Shown here piece by piece: positions 24,506 through 60,455 of a stretch of 64,000 bases of DNA (positions are counted from its first letter, which is position 1; the number at the start of each line of letters is the position of its first letter). The stretch comes from a virus. The stretch is from positions 82,633-146,632 of IMG/VR virus record IMGVR_UViG_3300002131_000090. The stretch is one strand, 5' to 3'. Under the pieces are notes generated by a model. It worked only from the letters and a program-made list of their open reading frames with translations, was not told the origin of the DNA and ran no database searches. Position numbers and translations under genes: made by a program.

Positions 24506-24513
24506 TATTTATT
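24506..24513 (-). promoter_or_regulatory. late promoter box AATAAATA
   Basis: On the minus strand AATAAATA lies 19 bases before the ATG at 24,487 and overlaps the last codons of the giant gene. It fits the NATAAATA late motif and would drive the 203-residue gene and the fibres. Confidence 0.55.
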
Positions 24514-27500
24514 TAGGTAAGCTGATTGTTGCGCCGCGTAAGAATCTGCTTATTGCATTATCCGATTGTGCTAAACTATTATTACCATTGTTCCATATTT
24601 TTCCTGTTTTTCTAACAATTTTAACGTCTATTCCTGCATCTGGTGTAGTACTTAACAATACATCGTTCCCTGATATTGTAAATTCGGGTTCTAATGTAAC
24701 TGTTCCTTTGTTACTGTTGTATCTATCAATATCTAATGATGGATTGTGTACGGTTAATGCAGTTTTTCTTAAACGTATACCTCCAACAAACACATCGATT
24801 TCATTTACATTAGTAGAAGCCATGTAATCTCTAAATGCTATCTGATAGCTGCCAGAACTACCATCAGAAATAGTTGTTTGCGATAAAATTACATCCGAAT
24901 AGTTTATTGTTTCGTCAAGTCCTTGTCCGTATGCAACTGTTCCAACTGCATATACATTTCTAACACCAGTTCCGAGTGTACCTCTTCTTAACTGTGTTAA
25001 ATCTCTTCCAGAAATTCCAAAGTACTCTATTCTTTCACCTTCAATGAATATAACTCCAGGAATATTTTTACTTGTGTTTGGTTGGAAAAGTCCGTCTGCA
25101 CTTTCAAGACTTATTTTATGATCGTAGTAATTAAGAGATGATATTAATGCATAACCTTTATCTTGATTTAATCTCTTGTAATGAGTTCTGTCTAACATAT
25201 CTTTAAATATTCTAAATCCAAACTTAGCAGTAGTTGGTGCGTTAGCAAATTGTAATACATCAATTATATCGTTCTCTAAAGGCTTGTTTACTAGTTGTAT
25301 AGCATCGCCTGCTGGTAATAGATAATAATCAATGTGCGGAGTTAGCAAGGTACCGTTTACCGAAACCCATGCATACTCGGCACTGCTTATTGTACCGCGA
25401 AGTCTTACATAACCGCCAACTATAAGATTTCTTTGAATATAAGAGAACGTATCAATTGGCAGTGGAGCATACCCTGTACTATCTTCTGGATTAGTAATAC
25501 CAACTGTTCTGACTTTATAAGTAATTCTTTCAAACTGATTTACATCGTGATTACTGAAAGTATATATCTCAACTTCTTCTCCGCTTGAAGGAGCAATTGC
25601 AAATGTAACACTATCGCTAAGAACATATGATACATCTGTAATATAAGCATCGTGATTGACTTCTGAATTACTCAAAAGAAGAATATTAAATTCTGTACTG
25701 TTGTATTGTGTAAACAACGCATGTATATCTTTACGATAACTTCTTACTACAACTGATGATTGACTAATTGATTTAATTATTGCATTAACAGATGTTGCAC
25801 TGCTGTCTATTGATTGTATAACAATTTCGTCACCTACATTAAATGTAGATGATATATTAATTTCAGAACTGTCTATTGATTGTAAGTCTATTTGCGTATC
25901 AACAAAGTAGTATTCTGCATCGCCAATTACAAAAATATCAAGTTTTGTTCCTTGAGGTGCAACATCGTTTCTTAATAGAGTTATTCTTCCATTAATAGGA
26001 TCCCATGTAAACTCTGTTCTTGTTAAACGTACACCGTCAGCAAATACTAAAACTTCAGCTTCGTCAATTAAACTTATATCTTCAAATTGCCATTCCTCAA
26101 TGTCATATGTTCTATGACTTTGTGTTGTGTAAGAAGTACTATAACCAGGATTAAGAATTGTATCGTTAACTTTAACTAGAATTTTATGAGAGAACGGTTG
26201 ACTTTCAAACGGAGCAGGATTAACTGTATGATAATCAGTTGTACCATTAGATTCAAACGTTCTATCAATAACTACTTGACTATAAGTCTTAACTGTTGTA
26301 CTATAGATACTATACTGGAAAAAGTCACCTTCTGCTAGGATACCTGGTTCAAAAACAATTTTAAGTCTGTTTGAAGCATTGTCTTCTGTTGTTGTAACTA
26401 GATAGTTGTAATCCACCCCACTTGTTTTTACAATTCCGTTTACTGTTAAAAATACAGATAAGCTGTCTGTCCATATTGCGCCAGTAATAAATGTTGTAGT
26501 GCTACCGTCTGACGTAAAGTAGTTTGTTTCAATTAGATTATTACCATTTGTACCTATTGTTGTAATAGCTAAACTGGATCCAATAGAAATACTACTGTCT
26601 GCAAACTCAAGTGTGTTATTCTCAAAATTCAAGTTATATCTGCTTGGATCTTGAATTACATTGTCAAGTTTTACAATTACAGATTCTGTTGTTTGTGCAA
26701 TTCCAGGTAACCCAAATATTACAGTAGATCCATCTAAAAGAACGTAATTTGTAGTACTGATTACACCTACGCCGTCGGAATCTCTATGATAAACTTTTAT
26801 ATCAAGGGTATCTACTATTTCTCCCGGAACAAGTTCTTCAGGACCTTTGCTTGTAGTTGGAGTAACAAACCCATCGCCGTCAACTGTAATATCTTCAGTT
26901 AACAGTCCTGTAGCAGTTGTGTATGCTAGGTTGCCGCCGCCTAATGCAGTATCATAACTTGTGCTTGATGGAGTATAACTTCCATCGCTTGTACTTTTTC
27001 TAATGATTACTATATCGCCGGCAAATGTTGGAACAAGGTCTTCGTCAATTGTAATTGTATCTGTTACCCCATCACCGACTATTGTTTCCAATACTGCATT
27101 TGGATTAGATAGCACAGTTGTTAAGTCATACTCTGGATCGTCAAGTCTAACTCCGTTTAGATAGAAGTTATATTCAACTCCGTCTTCTAATGCTTTAGAT
27201 AGTTGGAATACTGTTGTACTGCCGTCAAGTACAAAGATTTCGTCTTCGTATGTGTTATCAAATGTATCCCACGGTGCAGCACCAAATAATCCGCCAAATC
27301 CTTGTTCGTTTCCAAATCCAATGCTATCAAATTTTACACCTGAATATTCAACGCCGTCCATCAGCTGTGCTAAATCTTTACCAGCCATTCCAGTTGTAGG
27401 ATTATAGAAGAAGTTTATTCTGTCTGCAGCACTTAAGAAGCTAACATCTTTCATGTAGTAAACTTTAATAACTGCTCCTACTGCAGGTGCTTTTACAAAT

Positions 27501-30500
27501 CTAATACGACCGCGTTGCACATTATAACCAAGTGTTAAATGTGATGTGCCCGGACCTGCTGCAGTGTTTTGCAACGTGTCATAGTTAAATGATTCATCAT
27601 CATATAACTTCTCTTGGTCAGTTGTAAAAGAATTAGAAACAGTATATGTACTACTTAATTGTAGAGTATTATTAATGTAAACACTGTACTGATCAGTTCT
27701 AATATCAAGTGGCCACTTAGTATTAAAAGTGCGCTGGGAGCCAGTGCCGACAAATGTTTCGTATCCATCTACATTTGGTTTAAGGTCAGTAACATAATAA
27801 TTGCCACTAACTCTGTCAAACTTAATTGTAATATGTGCAGATCTAACCAGTGGATTTCCAAGTACCGGAGATACTTTAGCAGTATATCCGTTTGTATCAG
27901 GATCGGCAACAGTTACAGTTGGCGGAGTAATAAAACGCTCACCTCTTGTTATTAATTCAACTTGATAAACAGCACCTTTTCTAACATAAGCTCTAGCAGT
28001 TGCACCATTACTTGGTGTTACTGTTACAGCTGGTGATGAAGTATAACCAGACCCGCCTTCAACTACTTCATATGATACAACATGATAACCGTTGTTATCT
28101 ACCCAATTATCATAAGGAGAGTAAAGATATTTGTCAAGTATATTAGTTACAACACCATCCTGCACTGTTGCAATACTTGTTTCGATAATGTTAGTTTCTT
28201 CGTTGTAACTTGGAGGTAAATCAAAGTCAGTTGTTAATGAACCAGTTGGTTCAACATAAGTGTAACTACTAATATATTCTCTCACCTTAGTACTGTAAGG
28301 TTTTACTTCGTTAACATAGTCTTGATAATTTTCTAAATTATCATTCTGGAATGTAAGTTCTTGACGGAAATCTCCAAGGTTATGTTTTGCTCTTACAAAA
28401 CTTGTTTTGAATATCCAATCAATATTTGACTGTTCTGCAAATGCGTATCGTACACCTGCAAAGAATAGCTTGTTGTATTCTACTGCTAAGTCGCTTATAA
28501 AGATATCGTCACGTAGTGCTATAATTATATTTCTTAGTTCATATATTGGTTCTCTATCATAAAATGATGTATCGTATATTCCGTTGTCAAATCCAGTAGA
28601 AACAGTATACAAATACGGACTAAGTTGTAAAGTTCCGTTTTGTCGTCCTACAGTACGATAATTAATTGTATAATCTTCTGTTAGCTGATCGTCAACTTTT
28701 TCTAATAATAGCCAGCCGCCGCTGCCTACGTTTTCAATTTTAACTATGTCACCAATAATATCATTTAAAGGATATAGTTTATAGCTCGAGTCTATTAAAT
28801 GTTTAATTTCAGTTGAACTAGCGTATCCTTCGGCATACCAATCTGTATAACTCCAATAACGTGTAGTATCATATGCTTGATTGCTAGTTCTGAACCATAC
28901 TTGCTGTGCAGAATCCCAACTATAAATTGCCCAACGGTTTCCAATTTCAGAATCTGAACTTACTAATACCGAGAATGGGCGAACTTCTAAAGCGGTATCT
29001 GGTGAATAGTTTTTACCTTGAGAACGTATATTAACACTGGTAACTTGCCCTAAATTGTTTATAGTTGTTTTAATAATAGCCCTAGAACCATAAGTGTCTG
29101 TTACAGTAACAACCGGAGAAACTTTATATCCTCTACCAGCATTCAGAATAGTAACATTTGTTATTTTTCCATTAACAACAGTAGGTTGCAACACTGCTTG
29201 AGAAAGTTTTGCAACTCCAAGAAATTGAAGTTGACTTACTGTATCTGCTGTAGTGTCATATTTTCCTACGTTGATATTAGGAACTTCGTCTTTAAGTAAC
29301 ATACCTGTTAAGTTGTAGTTGTCAACAATTTGGTTTTCTGCAAATACAATATTAACTCTTTCAACAAACTGTTTAAGTGCTTCTATTCTATTAACAAACA
29401 TACTTTGTCTTGGAACATTTAAAATTCCATATTTTTGTTTTACAGTTAATCTAGTATCGGGCACTGGTTTATTATTAGAGTCGTAACCTATTAAACTGTC
29501 AAACCACTTTGTTTCTATTTCACTGTTTACACGACTTGTATCCAGTCCTTCTGTAATTAGCTGATATTCGTTGTGTGTATTTGATTGTAGTTCGTTATCT
29601 TTATAAAATCCAAAGTGTAGTATTGTGTTAGTACCTTCGACTAACCCTTTAGAGTTATATAATGCAAACTTGTCTTTATCAAGTGGTGCAATAAATCTAT
29701 ATCCAAAGCCTGCAGGGTCTTCTATCAGTGCTGCAACTTGCTGCGCTGATAGTCTTCTGTTATTATTGTTTTGTGGTAATATTCTATTATTTTTAACCCA
29801 GAAGTAGTATTTTAAAACAGTTGTATTTTTTTCAACATCGTATGTATTTTTAAAACTAAAAATTGTATCATCGTATAGCGGAAGCCCGCTGATTCCTCTT
29901 GAAATGCCTGCAGTTGTATCAGCTAATGCAGCCCATTCAGTTGGAGATACATCTGACCTTACCCATTCGTATACATCAACAGTTGACCCAACTGTTAGTT
30001 TATTCCATACAGAAGATCTATATTGTATATCGCCTTGGTACGGATTGTACCAACTAGCAGTACTCATATCCCACCATAACATTCCAACGTATTTGTCTGT
30101 CCAATTAATCGAACTATCAACAGTAATGTCAGTAATGGTTCCTGATGCATTAACAGAATATGTTGCTGGATCGTAATGAGTTTTGAAACTTAATTCTTGT
30201 TCTGCCGGTCCTGCAAATTTTCCTTGACGTGGATCAATAATATCTAAGTTTAAAATTAAATCGCTTGTATCGTTTGCATATAAGAAACAACGTTGTATTG
30301 CTGGTATGCTAACTTTGCCAGACTGTTGTGCAATATTCACCCAAGCATTGGCATTTTGTTCTGATCTTAAGTCTGCAAGAATACCAACAGAAGAGTTGTC
30401 AGTTATATTATATCCGTCTTCTAACGAAGAATCACCAACTAAGTTAAGATCAACTTTTGGTAAGCCTATATATAAATGATTGTTTACTAATTTAAAATTA

Positions 30501-33500
30501 CTTACATCATTAAATTTAATATTTCTATTATACGCTGCATCTTCTCCGTATATATAATAGTCATCAATTTCTTGCCATATAGAAACTCGTCCTGAGTCCT
30601 TTATAGTAGTAATTAACTTAGTAGAATTACCATCAAACGTAGTAGGTGCTGCACTTTCTGCAGAAGTATTATCAAATACATAAACAGAATATATATTAGC
30701 ACCGTCTTCGTCTTTACCAACAACTACATTATAATTTAATTCAGTGTATCTGTCAAGTGTTGTATGAATCTTTGTATCTGTGTTTTTTCCACTGATAGCA
30801 AGTTTATTTCCGTAAAAATCTAAACCAGTGCCAAATGCTTCGTTTGGTTCGTCAAACGGACTTTTTAATGTTTGATTAAGTGTATATGTAGATACGTTAT
30901 CTGTTGTAACTTGCTTATAAACATATACTACACCTTGATCAATGCCAGCATCGTCGTTAAGAGGAGCACCAATAGCAATTTTTTCTCCTACTTCGTCAAT
31001 AGCAACAACATAGCCAAAATCTTCTAGCGAATCGTCAGTGTCAATACTTTGGCTATAAGTCCATCTGTTATCAGTATGTCTGTATATTGTAACACGTTCG
31101 TGTGCTGCTGCATTATTTTGATCAGTTGAAGCTGGCATAACAAAAATGTCAGCAAGTTTGTTAACATCAAATATTTTACCTATGTTTGTTGCAGTAGAAA
31201 ATAATGAGGCTTCCGAAGCTTCGATTGATAAATCGCCATGCGGTACATATCCAGTATGCTCTACATCTGTAACTACTTGCCAATCAGTGTTAATTGACGT
31301 TGGAGGCGAAACTCCTGCATCGATGTTTGTTAGTGCTTTATACAAAACATTAGACTCAAATACAATATCATTAATATCGTATTTTGCATAATCACTGTAA
31401 CTTCCTTTGAACTTTCTGTCTTTAGTATATGTCCATGCATCATCTGTATTGTCTAAAAAGTAAATTCTTCCTTGGTCAACAGCATCTTCGCCTGGAGCTC
31501 CAACAAACAACTTTGTTAAGCCAGTTGAAGTTTTTCTTAATTCAACCTTGTATCCAAATCTTTCATCTGTAGTCGGATTTGGACTTACAATACAATGCGA
31601 TAGTTCGTATGTATTATCATCTATTCTGCGTTCATATAAAAATACTGCACCCTGATTTGTATAACCAAAGTCCGTATTTCCAAATTCTGATGTTTCATTT
31701 AAATATGCAGGGGCCCAGTCTTGATCATTTATATCAATAGTACTACTATCGCCCGATCCCCAACTAGCTATGTCAGTTAATGCTCTCCATAGAGTTCCTC
31801 TATCGTTTACAATGTCACCTATGTTATAAGATTTATCTGGTTCAACATAGCCTGCATAATAAGTTTTTGCATTACTTGCATTTGGTGCGCCAACAGCAAT
31901 ATACTTACCGTCTTCACTTATTGCAACGTCAAATCCATATTTGCTATCAACATCAATGGTTGAATTAACTAACAACGTCTGGAATAAAGTTTTTTCTTGT
32001 GCTTCAACATTTCTAGTATAAATTCTTACACTATTGTCTATTGACCCAACAACAACCACAGCATTAGAATCGTTAATGTCAAAACTGGTAGAGAACCCAG
32101 TGCTTGTTACATCTGGATTTACAATTTCTTGTTGTACTGAGAATACAGGATTATTAGTAAACACAGCAAACGATTCTTCGCCACTGTCTATCCATACAGT
32201 ATCATCAAATTCTGAAGCAACTTGTTTTATATTTTGATTTAAGTCGTTTATATCAGTAAAGCGTCTTTTTACAAAACGTGAAACGTTTATTACTGTACTA
32301 TCGTCACCTTCATCTGGTTCTGTAATCTCAGCTTGTGTAATGAATACAACTTCATTACCAACTACACTTTTAACTTTGTGGAACCCGTTAACACCATCTA
32401 GCCTGCTTCTAAGTCCTACAAGTTCATCTTCAACAAAATCTACAGTTGTATCAAAGTAAACTGTAAACCCTATAAGATCTGTTGCATCAAACGTAGTTTC
32501 GTCTGGTAGTCTAGCAATAATGCTTTCAACATTATAGCCTGTGCTCACATGTCTAATTGCATTCCAGTTTTGTTTTTGATTTTTGATCCATACAAAATCG
32601 CCAATTTGTATGTCATCAATATTAAGATTTACTAATTGTTCTTCACTTTCAGAAACAAACGTAACGTCTTCGTTACGGCAGTATCCTGAATTTTTAGTAA
32701 AAATTGATTTATTAACTGTAGTTGAAAATAGTGCAGAATGGTCGTAATCAGTTGGTAACAAAACTGCATCACTTTGTAAAAGTTCGTAAGTTAAATCTGT
32801 TCTGTTTACATTTGTATTATTAACTAATTCAAATAACTGAGGCTCAAGCCTATATTTTGACTCGTCAAGTTTAAATTCTACTTCTATATTGTTTTCTACA
32901 GAACCATACTGGCCTAATCGTATAGCCCATTCTTCGTAAAATTCTAAACTATCAGTGTTTGCACTACTTAAAGCATCAAACAATTTAGTCAAACTATTTT
33001 TTGTACCTTTGTCTTGAATAAATCCTTGATAGAACTTATATTGGCTTACACTATCTGTAATAATATTACTTAGATAATTACGTTTTTGATATCCAATTAA
33101 ATGCTGGCCTAGTCTTTGTTGCTCGGAATCAAAGTTGTCAGTATCTAGACTATAGAAATCTGTAAACTGATTTACTCTATAATCCCAGTTTGGCAATAGC
33201 TCAGGCTCTGGTCTGTCATTTAATATAGACCAGTGGTTTGCATCAAAGTATTCATTACTAGTATGTTTTACAGTTGATACATAATAGAATTCTTTATATT
33301 TTACTAGATCGCCTAATGAGTAATCAGTCCATATGCTCCATACTGTAACTTTTGCATCATCATATATAAATCCAGGAATGTTAAGACTACCGTTCCAGTT
33401 GTCAGTTCTATAACCCACAAGTTTTATTCTATCTTGTCTGTATCCAGTAATTTTATCAAATATTACATCATTAAACACAGTTTCGTTGTCAATAAGAATA

Positions 33501-36500
33501 ACATGCTCTTTTTGAACCAATGGTAGTTTTACAAGAAAAATGCCTTCTGACATTCCGATAGGTTTTAATCCAAACTCGTTTTGACTATTTCTAAATATAT
33601 TAGAAAACTCTTTACTTACACTTTGACCATTTCCTGCTAACAAGCTATAGTCATAAAATCCATCAAACAAGTTATCAACTACATGATAAGGTCTTTCAAA
33701 TGAAACTTGATTAGCTACAGGACTTACTGTTAATATAGTACCGTTGTCCCAGTTTTGTGTAGTCCAGAATAAGAATTCCTTGACACAAAGTTGCATGTTT
33801 TCTACTGCTTCGGTTTCGGTATTAAAGTATTCAAACTTAAATCCTTGATTTTTTAAATAGTATTCATACCCTAACATAAAGTCAACTAGATCTTGCTTAC
33901 TTGATAGCAGTGTGCCGTATGATAAACGAGAAACTTGAACATCGAAGTTTCTTTTTAATACTGCGCTTGCACCACCAACAATAGGAATACTTGCTATTTG
34001 TGCAAATTTATTTGAATCAAATTCTGTTGTACTTTGATGTGTTGTTTTTGTTCTATAATACTTACTGTTGTATTCGACAATTGTACCAATAGGATATGTT
34101 TTATTTTCAGCCCAAGTCACAAACTTTTCAGAAATACCGCCAACTGTTATTGCAGGATCTGAATTTGTTAATGCCGGAACATTGTATAAGAAAACAGGAT
34201 CTTCTTTATCGTACCCAGATATAAGATAACCGTTTGCGGTTTTTTCTATTATAATACCACTTAACACTGCAATTTCTAATGCAGAACTTGTAATGAATGC
34301 AATTTGATAATTTTCATCTGGTACAAATACACTGGTTTTATTCAGTGGGCTTCTACTATCTAATAATAGTTTTAACTTAGTCTTATCAGCAAACCCGCCT
34401 AGCTTTATTGCAAGTTGGTTGTTTAACCCTTTTAAATTAGTAATGTAATTTGTGTATCTTGATGCATTTTTACCTGACATGTAACTAGCAATATAGTTAA
34501 CCAATCCAGATGTTAGGATAACATTTGTATCTATACCTATTGTTGGAAATTTTAAACTACTAAGAGAAATTCTTTTATCAGTTTCTGTATAAACTAAATT
34601 TCCAGCAGCATCTCTTTTAATCCTACTTAGGTCAAACCCTAGGCCTAATAACTTAGCCGGTTGTAATAGTACCCATGAAGTAATTAAGGAGAACGGGTAT
34701 TCACTACTACGTCTCCATGCAGTTTCAACAGGCGAAGAATCACCAAACTTAAATGCTGCTTGTCCATTTGAAATACTAAAGTTTTTTGCTAATCCACACT
34801 CTAATGGGCTTAATAATTTACCATATTCGTCTACAGGAATAAAGGTTAATAATCCAGGTCTTATATATTTTGGATCTCTTATTATAGCTGCATTTGGTAC
34901 TTTTATAATACCGTCTTGTAGGTCGTTCCATAATATTAAGTTGTCGCTAGTATACGGAGCAGGGCCGTATTGAGCTTCCCACCATGTTGGTTTAATTGTA
35001 AACCCTAACATTTCCCAAGGATGGGTATGAGGTCTATCTGTGTCAAAGTATTTTTTAAAAATACTTCTCCAATAACCTGATATTTCATTATCGTTGTAAT
35101 CTGTCATTGAATAATAGTTATAAGTAAAACTATCTTGACTATCGTAAAACGTATTTGAGGAATAGTCAGGCGATCCTGCTATCTCTATCCATTGTGCAAA
35201 ATCGGCCAGCATTGCATTGTTAATATCTACTGTGTCAAAATTAGTATTTCTAAATGCGCCACCGACAAAACTGTGTACATCTAGCAATGACGTATTGTAC
35301 TCTATTTTGATATTGTTATAAATTCTAGTTTCTAGTTCTAATATTAAGTCATCTCTATAGTCATCAAAGGCAAGTATAATACTACCATCGTGTCCTTGAA
35401 TTACATTTTTAGGAGTACTATAAGAGTTGTCAGTAAACTTCATAGGAAGATATTTTGGATATAATCCTAATTTAGTAGGTGTTGGAGGAATATACGTCCC
35501 GTTTGTTGACTGGTATTCGTAAACTGTAACAGTATCGCCATATACTAAATCTAACACATAAACAAATCTATCTGTAAAATTATAATCATCTCCGTGAACT
35601 AGTTGCACATCGTTTTTATAAACAAGAACAGATTTTGTTGAAAGGGTTAACAGGTCAAAGTCTAATGAAAGTGCAAAATACGACGGGCCGTCATATTCAA
35701 CTGTATGTATAGTTTTAGTATTTGCGCCAACTCCCAGCATATCACTGAAGTAGAAAGGCATAGATGATGTTTTGTCTTTTGTAATAGTAGATAAAATTAA
35801 ATCAACATGCTCTTTTGTACCGCCATGAAATCCAGTGTACTCAAATTCATTAATAAACTGTCTTTTAAATTTTGCATATTCCTTTCTAGCAAATTTTAAA
35901 GATTTAATAATGTTAGCATCTTTATCGGTAACATGGTATAGTGCAAGATTTAAAGGACCACTGTGTTGTACAAAACGCTTGCCGTGTTCGGTTACATTTC
36001 CAAGATCACGCAGGTTGTTAACACCTAAAATATCTCCAGAAAATCCTGGAACATCTTGTACTATACTGCTAACATGATCATTTACTTCGCCAAGTGTAAA
36101 GGTTAACAGATTTTCGTTTAACGGATTTTTTTCAAAGTTAATAGGCATTTCGTAAAACCCATTGCTGTTTTTATTTGCGTTACTATAGCATTTTAAAACA
36201 ACACTTGAATTAGCAGTTGATATTGTAGGTAAGAAAGTAACAATTTTTATATTGTTTCTAGTTGAAAGTGTATAGTGAACGTTTTCTTCTTTCTTTACAC
36301 CATCGAGATATACTCTAACAACAAGATCTGTTAACAATCCGCTGGAGACGGTAAAAACGTCAACTTTGTAAGGACCGGGTTCACTTACGTACTGTCTTAT
36401 AACAGGTTGTTTACTATTAGCAATTGCTTTTTTCCAACCGTTTACATATATAGATTGATCTCCTATATTATTATAAGATTTTAAAAATCCAGTATCGGTG

Positions 36501-38428
36501 TAGACAGTAATTGATTCCTGTGCAGTGTCTTGGTATATAAATGAACTGTCTAGTATATTAAAATCAAAAAGGATATCGCCAATATTGTTAATATTTCTAT
36601 AAGATAATGAAAATCCTAATTCGCTATCAGCTGTGCTAGTTCCAACTTGGTAGCTAAAAAGTTTATTTCCTGCAAAAGTACTATAAGGATATATTATAGA
36701 ATCGTTAAAAGAATTTCCATCTTTATCAAACATATCAAATAACGGTGCTTGGTTTACTGCTGTTTTTTCTTGTGATGGATTCCACAAAGTTCCGTTATAG
36801 TAGAACATCTTTCCTTTGTATTCAGTTCCTTGCAGTACTAATACTGTTTCGTTAATAACAGGAGAAGAATCGGTTGTAGCAATTAAACTGATCTGTCTAC
36901 GACCGTTATGAGTTATAAAGTTTACTTCGTAAATGTTATTAGCTACTAGTATGTCTTTATCAGCAGTAAATAAGATACGCATACCATCAACTAAATTGAT
37001 TCCGTCAACGTTGTATCCAATACTACCTTCAATGTTGCTAAAAACATCTGTAGTGTAAGTATCAACTAAGTCAACATTTACTTTACATTTTGTACCGTGC
37101 TGAAACAGTTTTAACCCTGCTTCAAATTCAATAATAGGACGTTTAGCTCGTTGGGTTTGATCAAGAACAACAGGTTGATTGTTAATATAAGCAACTTGTT
37201 CGATAATTGAACGATGGCACCATCTGTTATATCTACTCCACGGGTTTCTGTCTGCACTTGCTCTATTAATTACAATGTAATCTTTAGTGCCAGGAAAACT
37301 AGTACCATCTTCAAAGGGATATTGATCAAATGCTTCGTCGCCGCCATCAAACGGAATTTTATATTCGCTTGTAAAAATTGATGGTACTTCTAGATTCTTT
37401 TCTGATACTAGTACTATAGAATTACCAACACCTTCAACATACCAATAACCTTCGGCATATGTATCAGGAATAACTGTTCCAATAAACTTTAGTTTCATTC
37501 CATTACTTAATTCAGTACCGTTGCTAGTTTTATAAGTTTTCTTTCCTAGTATATCCGAGTTTATATCGAGTTCTGTATTTTCAGTTATATCATTAATTGA
37601 AAAAATACCACTAACGTTAATATCATTCTGACTAACGTAGTATAATGTATCAGGCGCATTATCAGGAACTGTAAATTCAATAACTCCGTCTTCTACATAA
37701 ACAGTTTCTTTTGAAACGCCTGTGTTATAGAAATTAGTTGTATTAAATTCTCTATTACTTGTAATAGCTATTGGATGCCCAACAGTATTGATTTCAAATT
37801 TATAACGTTGTCCTCTATACAACTTAATGATAGGGTTTCTTTCAATTCCTGTAGTAGGATAATCTGTTTCTGTGAATATATAAGACGGAGTAGCAATATC
37901 ATAAACTAGACTTATCGAATATGTACTTACTACACTTCTTGATGTTCCGTATACAGTTATAGAATCCGGGCCCATAGGTAGCCAATAGTATTCTCTAAAG
38001 TTTGTAAACTTATCCCAATCGATATGAGGGTTCCATGTATAAAATTCTTGACTGTTTGTTAAACTATGATTACTAGTTGTACCTTTAAAGTTTTTAATTT
38101 GAGATATATAATCATTGTAATTCTTTAAAAAGTTTACATTGTTTAATTCATCTTTATAAACTGCAACTGGCTCAAACTGATAGTTTGATCTATCTGCTGA
38201 TACGTCCTCAAGGTAGCTATCATCAACTGATCTAGTTTTTGAATGTCTTCTTCCTGCAAAAACATTAAGTTTTTCAACAACACCTGGTGCAAGCATTTGA
38301 TCAATAGTACTACTGATAAACTTTTTATTAATGTCTGTTCTAAAGTATTTTGGTAGAAAGTTTGATGAACTTCTGTCAGTGTTATTGCCTGCAGGAAGAT
38401 TAAATTCGTCTTGATTACTGTTAGCCAT
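24509..38428 (-). CDS. giant structural protein, baseplate/tail appendage
   Basis: An uninterrupted 4,639-residue reading frame, over a fifth of the window. Three regions can be seen. The N-terminal about 900 residues (FLPKYFRTDINKKF, NVFAGRRHSKTRSVDDSYLED) have no recognisable repeats. Roughly residues 2,100-2,560 carry FG-GAP/integrin-alpha-like blades (FGYDVAISEDGKYIAVGAP, KLFVGAPGEDAVDQGRIYF, FGYVVAIDEVGEKIAIGAP). From about residue 3,100 come GxGYxxSPxVTV units and then several DGSTTxF modules each with an NGVxxxxxDY tail. It shares one base with the gp6 stop and stands where T4 has genes 7-11. It is therefore probably part of the baseplate or its appendages. No enzyme domain is seen. 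Confidence 0.7.
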   Translation of the reverse strand: MANSNQDEFNLPAGNNTDRSSSNFLPKYFRTDINKKFISSTIDQMLAPGVVEKLNVFAGRRHSKTRSVDDSYLEDVSADRSNYQFEPVAVYKDELNNVNFLKNYNDYISQIKNFKGTTSNHSLTNSQEFYTWNPHIDWDKFTNFREYYWLPMGPDSITVYGTSRSVVSTYSISLVYDIATPSYIFTETDYPTTGIERNPIIKLYRGQRYKFEINTVGHPIAITSNREFNTTNFYNTGVSKETVYVEDGVIEFTVPDNAPDTLYYVSQNDINVSGIFSINDITENTELDINSDILGKKTYKTSNGTELSNGMKLKFIGTVIPDTYAEGYWYVEGVGNSIVLVSEKNLEVPSIFTSEYKIPFDGGDEAFDQYPFEDGTSFPGTKDYIVINRASADRNPWSRYNRWCHRSIIEQVAYINNQPVVLDQTQRAKRPIIEFEAGLKLFQHGTKCKVNVDLVDTYTTDVFSNIEGSIGYNVDGINLVDGMRILFTADKDILVANNIYEVNFITHNGRRQISLIATTDSSPVINETVLVLQGTEYKGKMFYYNGTLWNPSQEKTAVNQAPLFDMFDKDGNSFNDSIIYPYSTFAGNKLFSYQVGTSTADSELGFSLSYRNINNIGDILFDFNILDSSFIYQDTAQESITVYTDTGFLKSYNNIGDQSIYVNGWKKAIANSKQPVIRQYVSEPGPYKVDVFTVSSGLLTDLVVRVYLDGVKKEENVHYTLSTRNNIKIVTFLPTISTANSSVVLKCYSNANKNSNGFYEMPINFEKNPLNENLLTFTLGEVNDHVSSIVQDVPGFSGDILGVNNLRDLGNVTEHGKRFVQHSGPLNLALYHVTDKDANIIKSLKFARKEYAKFKRQFINEFEYTGFHGGTKEHVDLILSTITKDKTSSMPFYFSDMLGVGANTKTIHTVEYDGPSYFALSLDFDLLTLSTKSVLVYKNDVQLVHGDDYNFTDRFVYVLDLVYGDTVTVYEYQSTNGTYIPPTPTKLGLYPKYLPMKFTDNSYSTPKNVIQGHDGSIILAFDDYRDDLILELETRIYNNIKIEYNTSLLDVHSFVGGAFRNTNFDTVDINNAMLADFAQWIEIAGSPDYSSNTFYDSQDSFTYNYYSMTDYNDNEISGYWRSIFKKYFDTDRPHTHPWEMLGFTIKPTWWEAQYGPAPYTSDNLILWNDLQDGIIKVPNAAIIRDPKYIRPGLLTFIPVDEYGKLLSPLECGLAKNFSISNGQAAFKFGDSSPVETAWRRSSEYPFSLITSWVLLQPAKLLGLGFDLSRIKRDAAGNLVYTETDKRISLSSLKFPTIGIDTNVILTSGLVNYIASYMSGKNASRYTNYITNLKGLNNQLAIKLGGFADKTKLKLLLDSRSPLNKTSVFVPDENYQIAFITSSALEIAVLSGIIIEKTANGYLISGYDKEDPVFLYNVPALTNSDPAITVGGISEKFVTWAENKTYPIGTIVEYNSKYYRTKTTHQSTTEFDSNKFAQIASIPIVGGASAVLKRNFDVQVSRLSYGTLLSSKQDLVDFMLGYEYYLKNQGFKFEYFNTETEAVENMQLCVKEFLFWTTQNWDNGTILTVSPVANQVSFERPYHVVDNLFDGFYDYSLLAGNGQSVSKEFSNIFRNSQNEFGLKPIGMSEGIFLVKLPLVQKEHVILIDNETVFNDVIFDKITGYRQDRIKLVGYRTDNWNGSLNIPGFIYDDAKVTVWSIWTDYSLGDLVKYKEFYYVSTVKHTSNEYFDANHWSILNDRPEPELLPNWDYRVNQFTDFYSLDTDNFDSEQQRLGQHLIGYQKRNYLSNIITDSVSQYKFYQGFIQDKGTKNSLTKLFDALSSANTDSLEFYEEWAIRLGQYGSVENNIEVEFKLDESKYRLEPQLFELVNNTNVNRTDLTYELLQSDAVLLPTDYDHSALFSTTVNKSIFTKNSGYCRNEDVTFVSESEEQLVNLNIDDIQIGDFVWIKNQKQNWNAIRHVSTGYNVESIIARLPDETTFDATDLIGFTVYFDTTVDFVEDELVGLRSRLDGVNGFHKVKSVVGNEVVFITQAEITEPDEGDDSTVINVSRFVKRRFTDINDLNQNIKQVASEFDDTVWIDSGEESFAVFTNNPVFSVQQEIVNPDVTSTGFSTSFDINDSNAVVVVGSIDNSVRIYTRNVEAQEKTLFQTLLVNSTIDVDSKYGFDVAISEDGKYIAVGAPNASNAKTYYAGYVEPDKSYNIGDIVNDRGTLWRALTDIASWGSGDSSTIDINDQDWAPAYLNETSEFGNTDFGYTNQGAVFLYERRIDDNTYELSHCIVSPNPTTDERFGYKVELRKTSTGLTKLFVGAPGEDAVDQGRIYFLDNTDDAWTYTKDRKFKGSYSDYAKYDINDIVFESNVLYKALTNIDAGVSPPTSINTDWQVVTDVEHTGYVPHGDLSIEASEASLFSTATNIGKIFDVNKLADIFVMPASTDQNNAAAHERVTIYRHTDNRWTYSQSIDTDDSLEDFGYVVAIDEVGEKIAIGAPLNDDAGIDQGVVYVYKQVTTDNVSTYTLNQTLKSPFDEPNEAFGTGLDFYGNKLAISGKNTDTKIHTTLDRYTELNYNVVVGKDEDGANIYSVYVFDNTSAESAAPTTFDGNSTKLITTIKDSGRVSIWQEIDDYYIYGEDAAYNRNIKFNDVSNFKLVNNHLYIGLPKVDLNLVGDSSLEDGYNITDNSSVGILADLRSEQNANAWVNIAQQSGKVSIPAIQRCFLYANDTSDLILNLDIIDPRQGKFAGPAEQELSFKTHYDPATYSVNASGTITDITVDSSINWTDKYVGMLWWDMSTASWYNPYQGDIQYRSSVWNKLTVGSTVDVYEWVRSDVSPTEWAALADTTAGISRGISGLPLYDDTIFSFKNTYDVEKNTTVLKYYFWVKNNRILPQNNNNRRLSAQQVAALIEDPAGFGYRFIAPLDKDKFALYNSKGLVEGTNTILHFGFYKDNELQSNTHNEYQLITEGLDTSRVNSEIETKWFDSLIGYDSNNKPVPDTRLTVKQKYGILNVPRQSMFVNRIEALKQFVERVNIVFAENQIVDNYNLTGMLLKDEVPNINVGKYDTTADTVSQLQFLGVAKLSQAVLQPTVVNGKITNVTILNAGRGYKVSPVVTVTDTYGSRAIIKTTINNLGQVTSVNIRSQGKNYSPDTALEVRPFSVLVSSDSEIGNRWAIYSWDSAQQVWFRTSNQAYDTTRYWSYTDWYAEGYASSTEIKHLIDSSYKLYPLNDIIGDIVKIENVGSGGWLLLEKVDDQLTEDYTINYRTVGRQNGTLQLSPYLYTVSTGFDNGIYDTSFYDREPIYELRNIIIALRDDIFISDLAVEYNKLFFAGVRYAFAEQSNIDWIFKTSFVRAKHNLGDFRQELTFQNDNLENYQDYVNEVKPYSTKVREYISSYTYVEPTGSLTTDFDLPPSYNEETNIIETSIATVQDGVVTNILDKYLYSPYDNWVDNNGYHVVSYEVVEGGSGYTSSPAVTVTPSNGATARAYVRKGAVYQVELITRGERFITPPTVTVADPDTNGYTAKVSPVLGNPLVRSAHITIKFDRVSGNYYVTDLKPNVDGYETFVGTGSQRTFNTKWPLDIRTDQYSVYINNTLQLSSTYTVSNSFTTDQEKLYDDESFNYDTLQNTAAGPGTSHLTLGYNVQRGRIRFVKAPAVGAVIKVYYMKDVSFLSAADRINFFYNPTTGMAGKDLAQLMDGVEYSGVKFDSIGFGNEQGFGGLFGAAPWDTFDNTYEDEIFVLDGSTTVFQLSKALEDGVEYNFYLNGVRLDDPEYDLTTVLSNPNAVLETIVGDGVTDTITIDEDLVPTFAGDIVIIRKSTSDGSYTPSSTSYDTALGGGNLAYTTATGLLTEDITVDGDGFVTPTTSKGPEELVPGEIVDTLDIKVYHRDSDGVGVISTTNYVLLDGSTVIFGLPGIAQTTESVIVKLDNVIQDPSRYNLNFENNTLEFADSSISIGSSLAITTIGTNGNNLIETNYFTSDGSTTTFITGAIWTDSLSVFLTVNGIVKTSGVDYNYLVTTTEDNASNRLKIVFEPGILAEGDFFQYSIYSTTVKTYSQVVIDRTFESNGTTDYHTVNPAPFESQPFSHKILVKVNDTILNPGYSTSYTTQSHRTYDIEEWQFEDISLIDEAEVLVFADGVRLTRTEFTWDPINGRITLLRNDVAPQGTKLDIFVIGDAEYYFVDTQIDLQSIDSSEINISSTFNVGDEIVIQSIDSSATSVNAIIKSISQSSVVVRSYRKDIHALFTQYNSTEFNILLLSNSEVNHDAYITDVSYVLSDSVTFAIAPSSGEEVEIYTFSNHDVNQFERITYKVRTVGITNPEDSTGYAPLPIDTFSYIQRNLIVGGYVRLRGTISSAEYAWVSVNGTLLTPHIDYYLLPAGDAIQLVNKPLENDIIDVLQFANAPTTAKFGFRIFKDMLDRTHYKRLNQDKGYALISSLNYYDHKISLESADGLFQPNTSKNIPGVIFIEGERIEYFGISGRDLTQLRRGTLGTGVRNVYAVGTVAYGQGLDETINYSDVILSQTTISDGSSGSYQIAFRDYMASTNVNEIDVFVGGIRLRKTALTVHNPSLDIDRYNSNKGTVTLEPEFTISGNDVLLSTTPDAGIDVKIVRKTGKIWNNGNNSLAQSDNAISRFLRGATISLPK

Positions 38429-57118: not shown

Positions 57119-57349
57119 TTAAAAAAACGGTTGATTTGTTTTCTTAGCAGTGTCTAAGTTCTCTTTAATAAGAGTAGCAATAATTTCTCTTTCCTCGGGA
57201 CTAGTATTATATGCCTCGTCAAGAGACATACCGCCTCGCATAAACCAGCACATCTTAGTTAAGTCGTATTTGAGTTGTTTACTGTTGTCTTCAAGGATCT
57301 TAACTTCAGCAAGAATCTGCTCAATTGGCCAAGTTAAGATCCTTAGGCG
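57119..57349 (-). CDS. 51: gp51-like baseplate hub assembly protein, reached by -1 frameshift from gp26
   Basis: A 76-codon reading frame in the -1 frame relative to gp26, ending TAA at 57,121-57,119. It reads RLRILTWPIEQILAEVKILE, then KMCWFMRGGMSLDEAY, SPEEREIIATLIKENL and finally TNQPFF. I associate the MCWFMRGG...SPEERE...PFF pattern with gp51 of marine T4-like phages. There is no ATG, GTG or TTG in frame before the Met of MCWFM. Starting there would discard about 32 residues of coding-like helix. The frame is open back through the end of gp26 to the U UUU UUC heptamer, so expression as a gp26-gp51 fusion of 356 residues is the best reading. A non-AUG start (ATT/ATC) is the alternative. 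Confidence 0.75.
   Translation of the reverse strand, partial: RLRILTWPIEQILAEVKILEDNSKQLKYDLTKMCWFMRGGMSLDEAYNTSPEEREIIATLIKENLDTAKKTNQPFF
57293..57344 (-). promoter_or_regulatory. 14-bp frameshift-stimulating stem-loop
   Basis: On the minus-strand mRNA AAGGATCTTAACTT (57,344-57,331) pairs perfectly with AAGTTAAGATCCTT (57,306-57,293). The loop of 24 bases holds a further 4-bp hairpin. The stem begins four bases after the slippery heptamer and includes two bases of the gp26 stop codon. Neither strand has a T-run after it, so it is not an intrinsic terminator. A stem of this length and exactness inside a coding frame is unlikely by chance in this AT-rich genome. Confidence 0.8.
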
Positions 57350-58188
57350 AAAAAATTTGATTGGTCAAACGTAATTGGAATATCCATTGTAGCTGGTGCA
57401 CCGCGACTTTGTTCGTCTTCATCAAATGTAATTGTCATTGGTTTAATACTAAACTTTTCTCTTTGTTTGTCAATGTGAGAAATTATTCCTGCATAAACAG
57501 TTTTGTCAATGTTGCTGAGAAATTCATCTATGTGCTTTGGATTATCAACTACATCTTCATCTTGAAACTGAATTGCTTTTACACTGTTTATTACTTGTTT
57601 GATATTTAAATCAGTAAGTCTACTAAATGCTTCGTTAAACTTTTGTAATTTATCTAATTCAGACATAGTGTCGTCGTTGACAATTTTAAAAAGTCTTTGT
57701 TCTTCAAAGGACTTTAGTGCAACTTCGGTAAATTTCTTATAAGATATCGGTGCTACTTCAAATTTAAAATCATCTAAAATAATTAAATTGTCGTATGCAG
57801 CACTGGATAATCTATCTAACAAAATTCTTAAATCTAAAGAATAAGTTTTTTCTTCTTCTATTCCTGGAACATTAATACTCATATCCATATTTTCGCCATA
57901 CGTAGCAATGCGTATTGCTATCAGTATAGCATCAATGTCAATACTCGGAACGTTCCAGGCATTTTTAATATTCGGAATACAACTTTGTATAACACTAACT
58001 GTACTCTGTCCGTTTAATAATGCATCTGGTGTTTTAATCATCAACTCGTCTTTTGCAGTCATTGCTAAAACAGGATACTCATTATTTTCAGATATTTCAA
58101 TACTACCCTTGGGATAAAATTCACCGTTACTGGGTAATCTAATAAACAATTTAGGTTGTCTAAAGTGTTTTAGTAAAGGATTGTTCAT
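57343..58188 (-). CDS. 26: baseplate hub assembly protein gp26
   Basis: A 281-residue protein of the T4 gp26 (T4 baseplate hub) type as found in marine phages. It begins HFRQPKLFIRLPSNGEFYP, with AKDELMIKTPDALLNG, a pattern like the tail-assembly chaperones of other myoviruses. Later QDEDVVDNPKHIDEFLSNIDK is typical of gp26. GGAG lies ten bases before the ATG. The zero-frame product ends NFFA; a -1 slip at the last Phe codons continues into gp51. It is divergent from the tape measure gene with 80 bases between the starts. In T4, gp26 and gp51 are needed for hub assembly. Confidence 0.82.
   Translation of the reverse strand: MNNPLLKHFRQPKLFIRLPSNGEFYPKGSIEISENNEYPVLAMTAKDELMIKTPDALLNGQSTVSVIQSCIPNIKNAWNVPSIDIDAILIAIRIATYGENMDMSINVPGIEEEKTYSLDLRILLDRLSSAAYDNLIILDDFKFEVAPISYKKFTEVALKSFEEQRLFKIVNDDTMSELDKLQKFNEAFSRLTDLNIKQVINSVKAIQFQDEDVVDNPKHIDEFLSNIDKTVYAGIISHIDKQREKFSIKPMTITFDEDEQSRGAPATMDIPITFDQSNFFA
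57349..57355 (-). promoter_or_regulatory. slippery heptamer U UUU UUC
   Basis: In the gp26 frame the codons are AAT TTT TTC GCC TAA. The last T of AAT plus TTT TTC forms the X XXY YYZ heptamer for tandem -1 slippage: both tRNAs can re-pair on TTT TTT. The zero-frame stop follows after one codon. Confidence 0.8.
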
Positions 58189-58268: not shown

Positions 58269-60455
58269 TTGGCTGATCAAATAGAAATTAGTAATGTAGG
58301 CGGTGGCGGTGTAGCCAGCGAAGCTACACTATTATCGTTAGTAAACGCTGTTAGAAATTCTCGTGGCGCAGTTGCTGGCGTTGCAGGTGCTTCTAACGAT
58401 CAAACAGCAATTCGATTACAACAAGCATATCAACGTTCTCAAAAAACACAAACATCTCAAACAAAAGAATACAACACAGTTTTAAAATCTACAATTGACG
58501 GAGCAATGCGTGCCGGTAAAGCATATGCAGCTGGCGCAGATCGAATAAGTGATTTTAGTAATGCAGTGTTTGGCGGTCAAAGTATAATTTCAAAATTTGT
58601 AGGATATATTGATAATAGTCTTGACAGTTTTAGATCATTAGCCAGCGTTGGCGCATCATTTAGCAATAATATGTTTGATTTTATGCTTGCAGGTGCCGAT
58701 GCTTCTATGTCTTTAGATAGCTTTGTAGGATTTGTTAGAAGCAACAGTAGTGCATTAGCAAAACTTGGAGGTACAGTTTCTCAAGGTGCATCAAGTTTTG
58801 CCAATCTCAGTAGACAGTTTCGTTTAGGCATCGGAAGTACTTTCTTTGAAATGGGAATGACTATAGAAGATGTTAACAGCGGATTGTTAGGATACATGGC
58901 CTTAGAAAATAGAAGAGGCAATAGTCTAAGATTAAATGACAAACAACAAATGTCAGCAGCACAAGATTATATTTTCCAACTAGATAAATTAACAAAACTA
59001 ACTGGACTACAAAGAGAAGCACTAATAGACACTCAGATGGCATTACAAACTGATGCAAAAGTTAGAGGACAAATTACAAGACTTGAGCAATCAGGAAACG
59101 GCGCTCGTGCTAGAGAATTAGAAGCAATATATACACTTCAAAAAACAACACTGCCCGGCTTCCATGATGCATTGCTAGATTTATCAGATGGCGTAGCACA
59201 AAGTCCGATAGGTCAAGCATTAAGAAATGCAATTCCGGGCATTGACGACTTTGCAGTATCAGTGGCAAATGGAAACGTAAGTCAAGACGAATATGTTCGT
59301 CAGATGCAAAAGTATGGACCTCAGCTTGTTAACTATGCTAATAATCTTGACGGTGCAACACTCGATGCGTATAGAGCTGCTGGCGGATTTTATGCAGAAA
59401 TAGCAAACTTAGCAGATAATGCATATCAATTCAGTGAGATAATGCAATTAAACACAGAAGCTGCTAAAGAACAACAAAAAGATAGAGATAGTTTTACTTC
59501 AACTATTGGAAAGTTTCAACAAGCAATACAAGAATCTCGAGCTGCATTATTTCGTTTATTTGTTAGAAGCCCGTTTGCAGAAGCAATAAAAGAGTTAGGT
59601 GTACAAATTTTAAAACTAATAAAACCAGTAAAAAACGGAAGTAGTATATTTGAATCTTTTTTTGAAAAACTAATGGGAAAAAACGGAACCCTTACCAAAG
59701 GCGTTGAATCTTTAACTAAGTTTCTTGATCCAGAAAACCCAGACGGGATAGAATCAGCGTTAGATTCGTTTAACGAATCTTTAAAAGATATTACAGAATT
59801 TATTAAAAAGTTTTTAAGTGATGTTAAAACTGACGGCTTCTTTGCTGCTATTACTAATTCATTTAATAGATTATTTAACGGAGAAGATCCTACTAGCGAT
59901 CCTAACCCTCCACCAACAGGAAGTCAACCTGGGTTCTTTGAAGGTATTTTTGATCAACTACAACAAACATTAACAGACACGTTTGACGACATATTAACAA
60001 GATTTGGCAATGTTTTAGATAAAGTTATGGAAAGAGTAGGAGCTCATATAGTAATTGCCCTTAGCGCATCGCGGTTGTCGTTTGTCTCTCAAGAAAGAAT
60101 AGATGCTGCTAACGCAACGTTAGCAGAGCCTTTTGAGTTTGCTAACGGTTCAGGAGGCTTTAGAGAGTTCGGCGCAGGAACTCCAGCAATATTACACGGT
60201 AACGAAGCTGTTGTTCCTAGAAACTCGTCAGCAGGTCAAATGTTAGCAAGTTCTGGATTGAGCAGTACACCAGGCACAGCTAGTGGTACATACAACAATA
60301 CTGCCAGCTCTGGTATATTAGATGGCTTAAATAGGTTAAATACTACAATGCGTAGTGTTGAGTCATTATTACAACAAGGTAATACTATACAAAAAAGAAC
60401 ACAACGCAATACTGCAGGATTAGGAAATGATATGTTTGTAGGAGTGCCGACATGA
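58269..60455 (+). CDS. tail length tape measure protein (gp29 role)
   Basis: A 728-residue, mostly helical, Ala/Ser/Gln-rich protein. It begins with a Gly-rich segment (NVGGGGVASEATLL), followed by long amphipathic helices. A Pro-rich break lies near residue 550 (DPNPPPTGSQPG). The C-terminal motif FGAGTPAILHGNEAVVPR is of the kind found at the end of many tape measure proteins. It would set tail length and leave the tube first during DNA injection. The start is TTG with GGAAGAAG upstream; the next Met is about 80 residues in. Its four-base overlap with the portal gene and its neighbour gp26/gp51 support the call. Confidence 0.78.
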   Translation: MADQIEISNVGGGGVASEATLLSLVNAVRNSRGAVAGVAGASNDQTAIRLQQAYQRSQKTQTSQTKEYNTVLKSTIDGAMRAGKAYAAGADRISDFSNAVFGGQSIISKFVGYIDNSLDSFRSLASVGASFSNNMFDFMLAGADASMSLDSFVGFVRSNSSALAKLGGTVSQGASSFANLSRQFRLGIGSTFFEMGMTIEDVNSGLLGYMALENRRGNSLRLNDKQQMSAAQDYIFQLDKLTKLTGLQREALIDTQMALQTDAKVRGQITRLEQSGNGARARELEAIYTLQKTTLPGFHDALLDLSDGVAQSPIGQALRNAIPGIDDFAVSVANGNVSQDEYVRQMQKYGPQLVNYANNLDGATLDAYRAAGGFYAEIANLADNAYQFSEIMQLNTEAAKEQQKDRDSFTSTIGKFQQAIQESRAALFRLFVRSPFAEAIKELGVQILKLIKPVKNGSSIFESFFEKLMGKNGTLTKGVESLTKFLDPENPDGIESALDSFNESLKDITEFIKKFLSDVKTDGFFAAITNSFNRLFNGEDPTSDPNPPPTGSQPGFFEGIFDQLQQTLTDTFDDILTRFGNVLDKVMERVGAHIVIALSASRLSFVSQERIDAANATLAEPFEFANGSGGFREFGAGTPAILHGNEAVVPRNSSAGQMLASSGLSSTPGTASGTYNNTASSGILDGLNRLNTTMRSVESLLQQGNTIQKRTQRNTAGLGNDMFVGVPT

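Follow-up and report, generated by a model that had tools for sequence, protein, structure and literature searches.

A programmed −1 ribosomal frameshift at the end of a gp26-family gene very probably yields a short and a long form of a tail assembly chaperone in the viral DNA analyzed here, a 64-kb stretch (the window) within a 146.6-kb viral contig. Slippage, its rate and the chaperone role of the products are put forward on the basis of a slippery site and an RNA stem, the conservation of the junction, covariation within the stem, an open −1 frame under selection and the paralogy of two genes of phage T4. The zero-frame gene (57,343–58,188, minus strand) encodes 281 amino acids and is the proposed short form (TAC-N). 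It carries the N-terminal domain of PF12322/phrog_150 and matches Pfam T4_baseplate (E = 8e-8) and phrog_150, a family labeled "baseplate hub" (E = 1e-10). The structural model predicted for gp26 matches the fold of T4-like baseplate hub assembly proteins in BFVD (E = 3e-22), and a fold search of the PDB, including its solved phage tail chaperones, gave no match at E ≤ 0.001. It is architecture and published work, rather than fold, that tie the protein to the classical tail chaperones. Sequence searches of NCBIfam and the PDB returned nothing relevant. A BLASTP comparison of the window gp26 with T4 detected no homology (E = 0.28), and because neither gp26 nor the tail encoded in the −1 frame showed BLASTP similarity to T4, profiles were used instead.

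The gp26 frame ends with TCA AAT TTT TTC GCC TAA. Direct reading places the zero-frame stop codon TAA at 57,343–57,345 and a slippery heptamer U UUU UUC, in phase with gp26, at 57,349–57,355 (all junction features are on the minus strand). A second canonical heptamer, A AAU UUU (57,352–57,358), overlaps the first and would give the same N-F-F-R junction. The −1 frame (57,119–57,355) is open from the heptamer for 78 codons counted from FF, or about 76 further codons from CGC, up to its stop codon at 57,121–57,119, and would encode the part by which the long form is extended at its C-terminus (TAC-C, gp51-C-like). Four nucleotides 3' of the heptamer begins a perfect 14-bp stem in which the 5' arm AAGGATCTTAACTT (57,331–57,344) pairs with the 3' arm AAGTTAAGATCCTT (57,293–57,306). 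The heptamer, the open frame and the stem had all been proposed in a sequence-only reading of the window, and direct reading of the sequence bears out their positions. Near-stop heptamers were compared across the 52 open reading frames of at least 100 amino acids in the window, and only here does a −1 frame of more than 30 codons extend beyond the stop (74 codons). A heptamer that arose by chance is ruled out by this uniqueness and by the conservation of the site.

In the proposed mechanism most ribosomes that translate the gp26-family gene would terminate at the TAA and release the 281-aa short form. The downstream hairpin would slow the ribosome at U UUU UUC and a minority would move back by one base, read about 76 further codons from CGC and produce a long form, about 356 aa in length, whose junction reads ...NFF-RLRILTWPIE.... 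By analogy with known systems, the two forms would serve as paired subunits of a tail assembly chaperone acting on the tape measure protein: the short form would coat the tape measure and the long form would additionally recruit the tail tube protein, as described for gpG and gpGT of phage lambda (PMC5009743).

A scan of IMG/VR with gp26 identified 58 loci in viral contigs with a best-segment identity of 34–69%. The junction is readable in 56 of these loci (L025 and L054 end before it) and thus in 57 sequences including the window. The exact T TTT TTC is present in 56 of the 57 readable junctions and in 37 of 38 distinct sequences, a set of tails that combines the IMG/VR loci, the window and four GenBank jumbo phages. 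Wherever the −1 frame lies fully inside a contig it is open and starts with FFR (in L028 it runs off the contig end). The sole relative without U UUU UUC (L046, 3807–3813) carries T TTT TCC preceded by the canonical heptamer A AAT TTT, and A AAU UUU may serve as the slip site in this case. This second heptamer is possible only where an AAT codon precedes TTT, as in 18 of the 38 distinct sequences. The preceding codon is otherwise ACT, GAT, AGT or CAT and ends in T in all 38 distinct tails; the frequency of synonymous T in such codons of the same genes is 70%, giving log10 p of about −6 for an invariant T if the sequences are treated as independent, which they are not fully. Four loci (L006, L009, L031, and L056) have a −1 stop codon immediately 5' of the heptamer, which restricts entry into the −1 frame by slippage to the heptamer or later.

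A run of six T is an error-prone place, and a homopolymer sequencing error could in principle split one continuous gene into two frames. The same split recurs in all readable relatives, whose metagenomes are independent of one another, and in the genomes of 13 named isolates, and none of the relatives has the continuous frame that the sequence-only reading had regarded as a sign of such an error. The relatives thus refute a sequencing error, the probability of which is negligible.

Apart from this stem, the 64-kb window contains no perfect 14-bp inverted repeat whose loop is of hairpin size. The predicted RNA fold of the stem has an energy of −22.3 kcal/mol (z = −3.3), and none of 200 shuffled sequences folded as well. 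A helix of at least 8 bp that begins 3–9 nt past the heptamer is found in 32 of the 38 distinct sequences vs 13% of the controls (1,900 positions in the same genes). Covariation within the window's subgroup (seven sequences), where the pairing holds, is weak (38–49 of 500 shuffles) and says little alone; the evidence is carried by the largest sister group. An ungapped alignment of 19 sequences from that group contains a 13-bp helix at the same position as the window's 5' arm, with 94% of cells paired and with five pairs (23 cells) changed on both sides; its covariation score was not reached in any of 500 shuffles and was far higher than the scores obtained when the helix was slid out of register. 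The position of the 5' arm is constant, and the 3' arm ends about 37, 55, 65, or 75 nt past the heptamer depending on the subgroup. In two related loci (L015, 3825–3900, and L022, 3828–3900) the heptamer is kept, AAAATACTGG replaces the 5' arm and a stem is absent, which shows that the stem can be lost. The spacing in the window is 4 nt past the heptamer, or 6 nt with two basal A-U pairs open, against a usual spacing of about 5–9 nt. The suggestion that these basal pairs are open on the ribosome is plausible: three of seven close relatives lack the outermost pair, and the sister-group helix is invariant from GG, six nt past the heptamer.

The same observations bear on the possibility that the mixed products come from slippage of RNA polymerase, not of the ribosome, on the run of six T. 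Bacteria are known to show transcriptional slippage on homopolymers, but six T is short for it; the site has kept C as its last base and the X XXY YYZ pattern phased to the codons, and the covarying RNA stem is found at ribosomal spacing. Polymerase slippage is considered highly improbable as the source of the two forms.

The −1 frame is free of stops in all 34 distinct sequences of equal length, whereas the other two frames are interrupted in 33–34 of them. Pairwise differences between the 34 sequences are biased toward the third codon position on either side of the first conserved Met (0.48, 0.36, and 0.62 for codon positions 1, 2, and 3 on the 5' side), a pattern which indicates that the −1 frame is coding and under selection. 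This selection upstream of the first Met also bears on whether the frame could be translated alone, by reinitiation or coupling past the gp26 stop, to give a free gp51 peptide and thus two separate proteins. The GenBank records of P-SSM2, S-PM2, and KVP40 are annotated in this way, KVP40, P-SSM2, S-PM2, and 121Q contain an ATG 2–5 nt 3' of the first base of the stop codon, and ATGA overlaps are found in Phosso and L034. However, the first 93 nt of the frame lack a start codon in the window and eight others of the 34 distinct relatives, as do the first 160 nt in PA5oct, a start at the first Met would cut a predicted helix (residues 11–40) of the extension, which is predicted to be helical, and neither the conserved U UUU UUC nor the stem is needed for reinitiation. 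Separate proteins are accordingly regarded as an unlikely general explanation, and the frameshift is preferred.

In the window, no AUG, GUG, or UUG occurs before nucleotide 93 of the −1 frame and the first is the ATG at 57,253 (the Met of MCWFM), in agreement with the sequence-only reading. The 22 bases 5' of this ATG contain no Shine–Dalgarno-like sequence; given this, the position of the Met inside the predicted helix and the selection upstream of it, an independent start at MCWFM is unlikely. The conservation of the missing start codon, which that reading proposed to check, extends to the window and its nearest relatives but not to some other relatives, which carry an ATG near the stop and also keep the slippery site. 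An ATG or TTG lies in frame close to the stop in several relatives, where a free short gp51 is possible through reinitiation.

The description of the extension as gp51-like was not borne out by a pairwise BLASTP comparison with T4 gp51 (E = 1.3) but was supported at the level of profiles: the −1 tails of the window clade align with gp51 C-termini over 42 columns (hhalign E = 1.9e-5, probability 78%), moderate evidence that the extension is related to the gp51 C-terminus. T4, RB49, and Acj9 contain two phrog_150 genes each and lack the slippery site. T4 gp26 matches positions 14–235 of phrog_150 and T4 gp51 positions 13–280, so that gp51 consists of the domain plus an extension. The profile matches indicate that the two T4 proteins are paralogues, gp26 being the short form and gp51 the short form with a C-terminal extension; in T4 the short form comes from gene 26 and the long form from its paralogue, gene 51. 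The contrast with T4 that had been drawn from the window alone holds in that T4 has two genes; these are paralogues, not unrelated genes that were fused elsewhere. Vladimirov and colleagues reportedly name T4 genes 26 and 51 in their 2022 study.

A phrog_150 search of whole records of named phages identified 13 phages outside the T4/RB49/Acj9 group (P-SSM2, S-PM2, S-SSM7, HTVC008M, Cr30, phiM12, KVP40, Aeh1, 65, pf16, phiW-14, 121Q, and RaK2) with an in-phase U UUU UU(C/U) near the end of the gp26 gene, which a −1 frame of 59–73 codons overlaps. The site and an overlapping −1 frame are also present in PA5oct, Atu_ph07, and Phosso. Perfect or near-perfect stems follow the site in the cyanophages S-PM2 (14 bp), S-SSM7 (12 bp), and P-SSM2 (11 bp); no stem stands out past the site in pf16, 65, phiW-14, RaK2, 121Q, and HTVC008M. 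A small open reading frame in the KVP40 GenBank annotation is noted as resembling the last 40 amino acids of T4 gp51. Two further records differ in arrangement. The extension of Rhodothermus phage RM378 (L085, NC_004735 near 26465) is encoded in the +1 (or −2) frame, at TCC TTT TTT TGG, which suggests a frameshift of a different direction, and Campylobacter phage CP81 (NC_042112, 23074–24182) contains two adjacent phrog_150-like open reading frames with a −1-frame overlap, possibly another duplicated arrangement.

The gene order in KVP40, P-SSM2, and S-PM2 (tail tube gene, gp26, −1 extension and then a large gene) is as expected for tail tube, chaperone, and tape measure, the large genes being candidates only. 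In the window, a large divergent gene (58,269–60,455, plus strand) lies 80 bp from the chaperone gene. It has no database match of its own; its family matches tape-measure PHROGs weakly (2 of 20 members match phrog_794, best E = 1e-6), and it is a candidate for the tape measure gene on the strength of these family matches. Elsewhere in the window, a single open frame at 24,509–38,428 (minus strand) encodes 4,639 amino acids, which is very large for a phage structural region.

The arrangement is old in the T4-like phages, and the general concept is already known. There is perhaps an even chance that the slippery site and the hairpin represent an ancestral selected element that sets the ratio of short to long form across the T4-like supergroup including the jumbo phages, in which a 5' arm that stayed the same kept its pairing as the 3' arm took up several positions, and which was lost once, at the duplication into genes 26 and 51 in the ancestor of T4. 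The comparison with relatives supports both the frameshift and the pairing of gp26 as the short form with gp26-gp51 as the long form, as well as the analogy to lambda G/GT drawn at the outset. It provides independent deep comparative support, together with RNA covariation, for T4 gp26 and gp51 as the short and long tail chaperones that are made elsewhere by frameshifting, and a case of a recoding event replaced by gene duplication. It also corrects the annotation of many phage records in which the extension is either missing or listed as a gp51 of its own.

The counterparts in phage lambda (gpG/gpGT) and other long-tailed phages (PMC5009743) showed no sequence similarity to the gp26 family in this study. 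They also differ from the window in that the window's candidate tape measure gene is divergent rather than downstream and that a strong stem-loop follows its slippery site. The chaperone locus of the Vandenendeviridae and Andersonviridae (PMC12846349) is similar in that a myovirus tail chaperone has a conserved T-rich −1 site (GTTTTT); these are different phage families, and the passages of that article considered here make no connection to gp26 or gp51. T4 genes 26 and 51 share membership in PF12322/phrog_150 with the window gene, and gp51 shares its C-terminal extension, but T4 has two genes in opposite orientation without a slippery site where the window has one gene with a frameshift. The closest precedent is a study of the tail assembly chaperones of T4-like phages (Vladimirov, Gautam, and Davidson 2022, Virology 566:9–15, doi 10.1016/j.virol.2021.11.003), which is cited in PMC10885494 and PMC12846349. 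According to these sources, it describes short and long forms; a poly-T −1 site occurs in some groups, and others have one gene for the short form and another, fused gene for the long form. The link between the T4 hub-assembly factors and the general tail-chaperone system, proposed from the window, is thus supported but had already been published for T4-like phages in 2022 (PMC10885494, PMC12846349). This study contributes many uncultured relatives, evidence of covariation in the stem and the cases from jumbo phages, with possible overlap with the 2022 study; the window's clade of uncultured phages, the stem that covaries and the divergent candidate for the tape measure gene may be additional to it.
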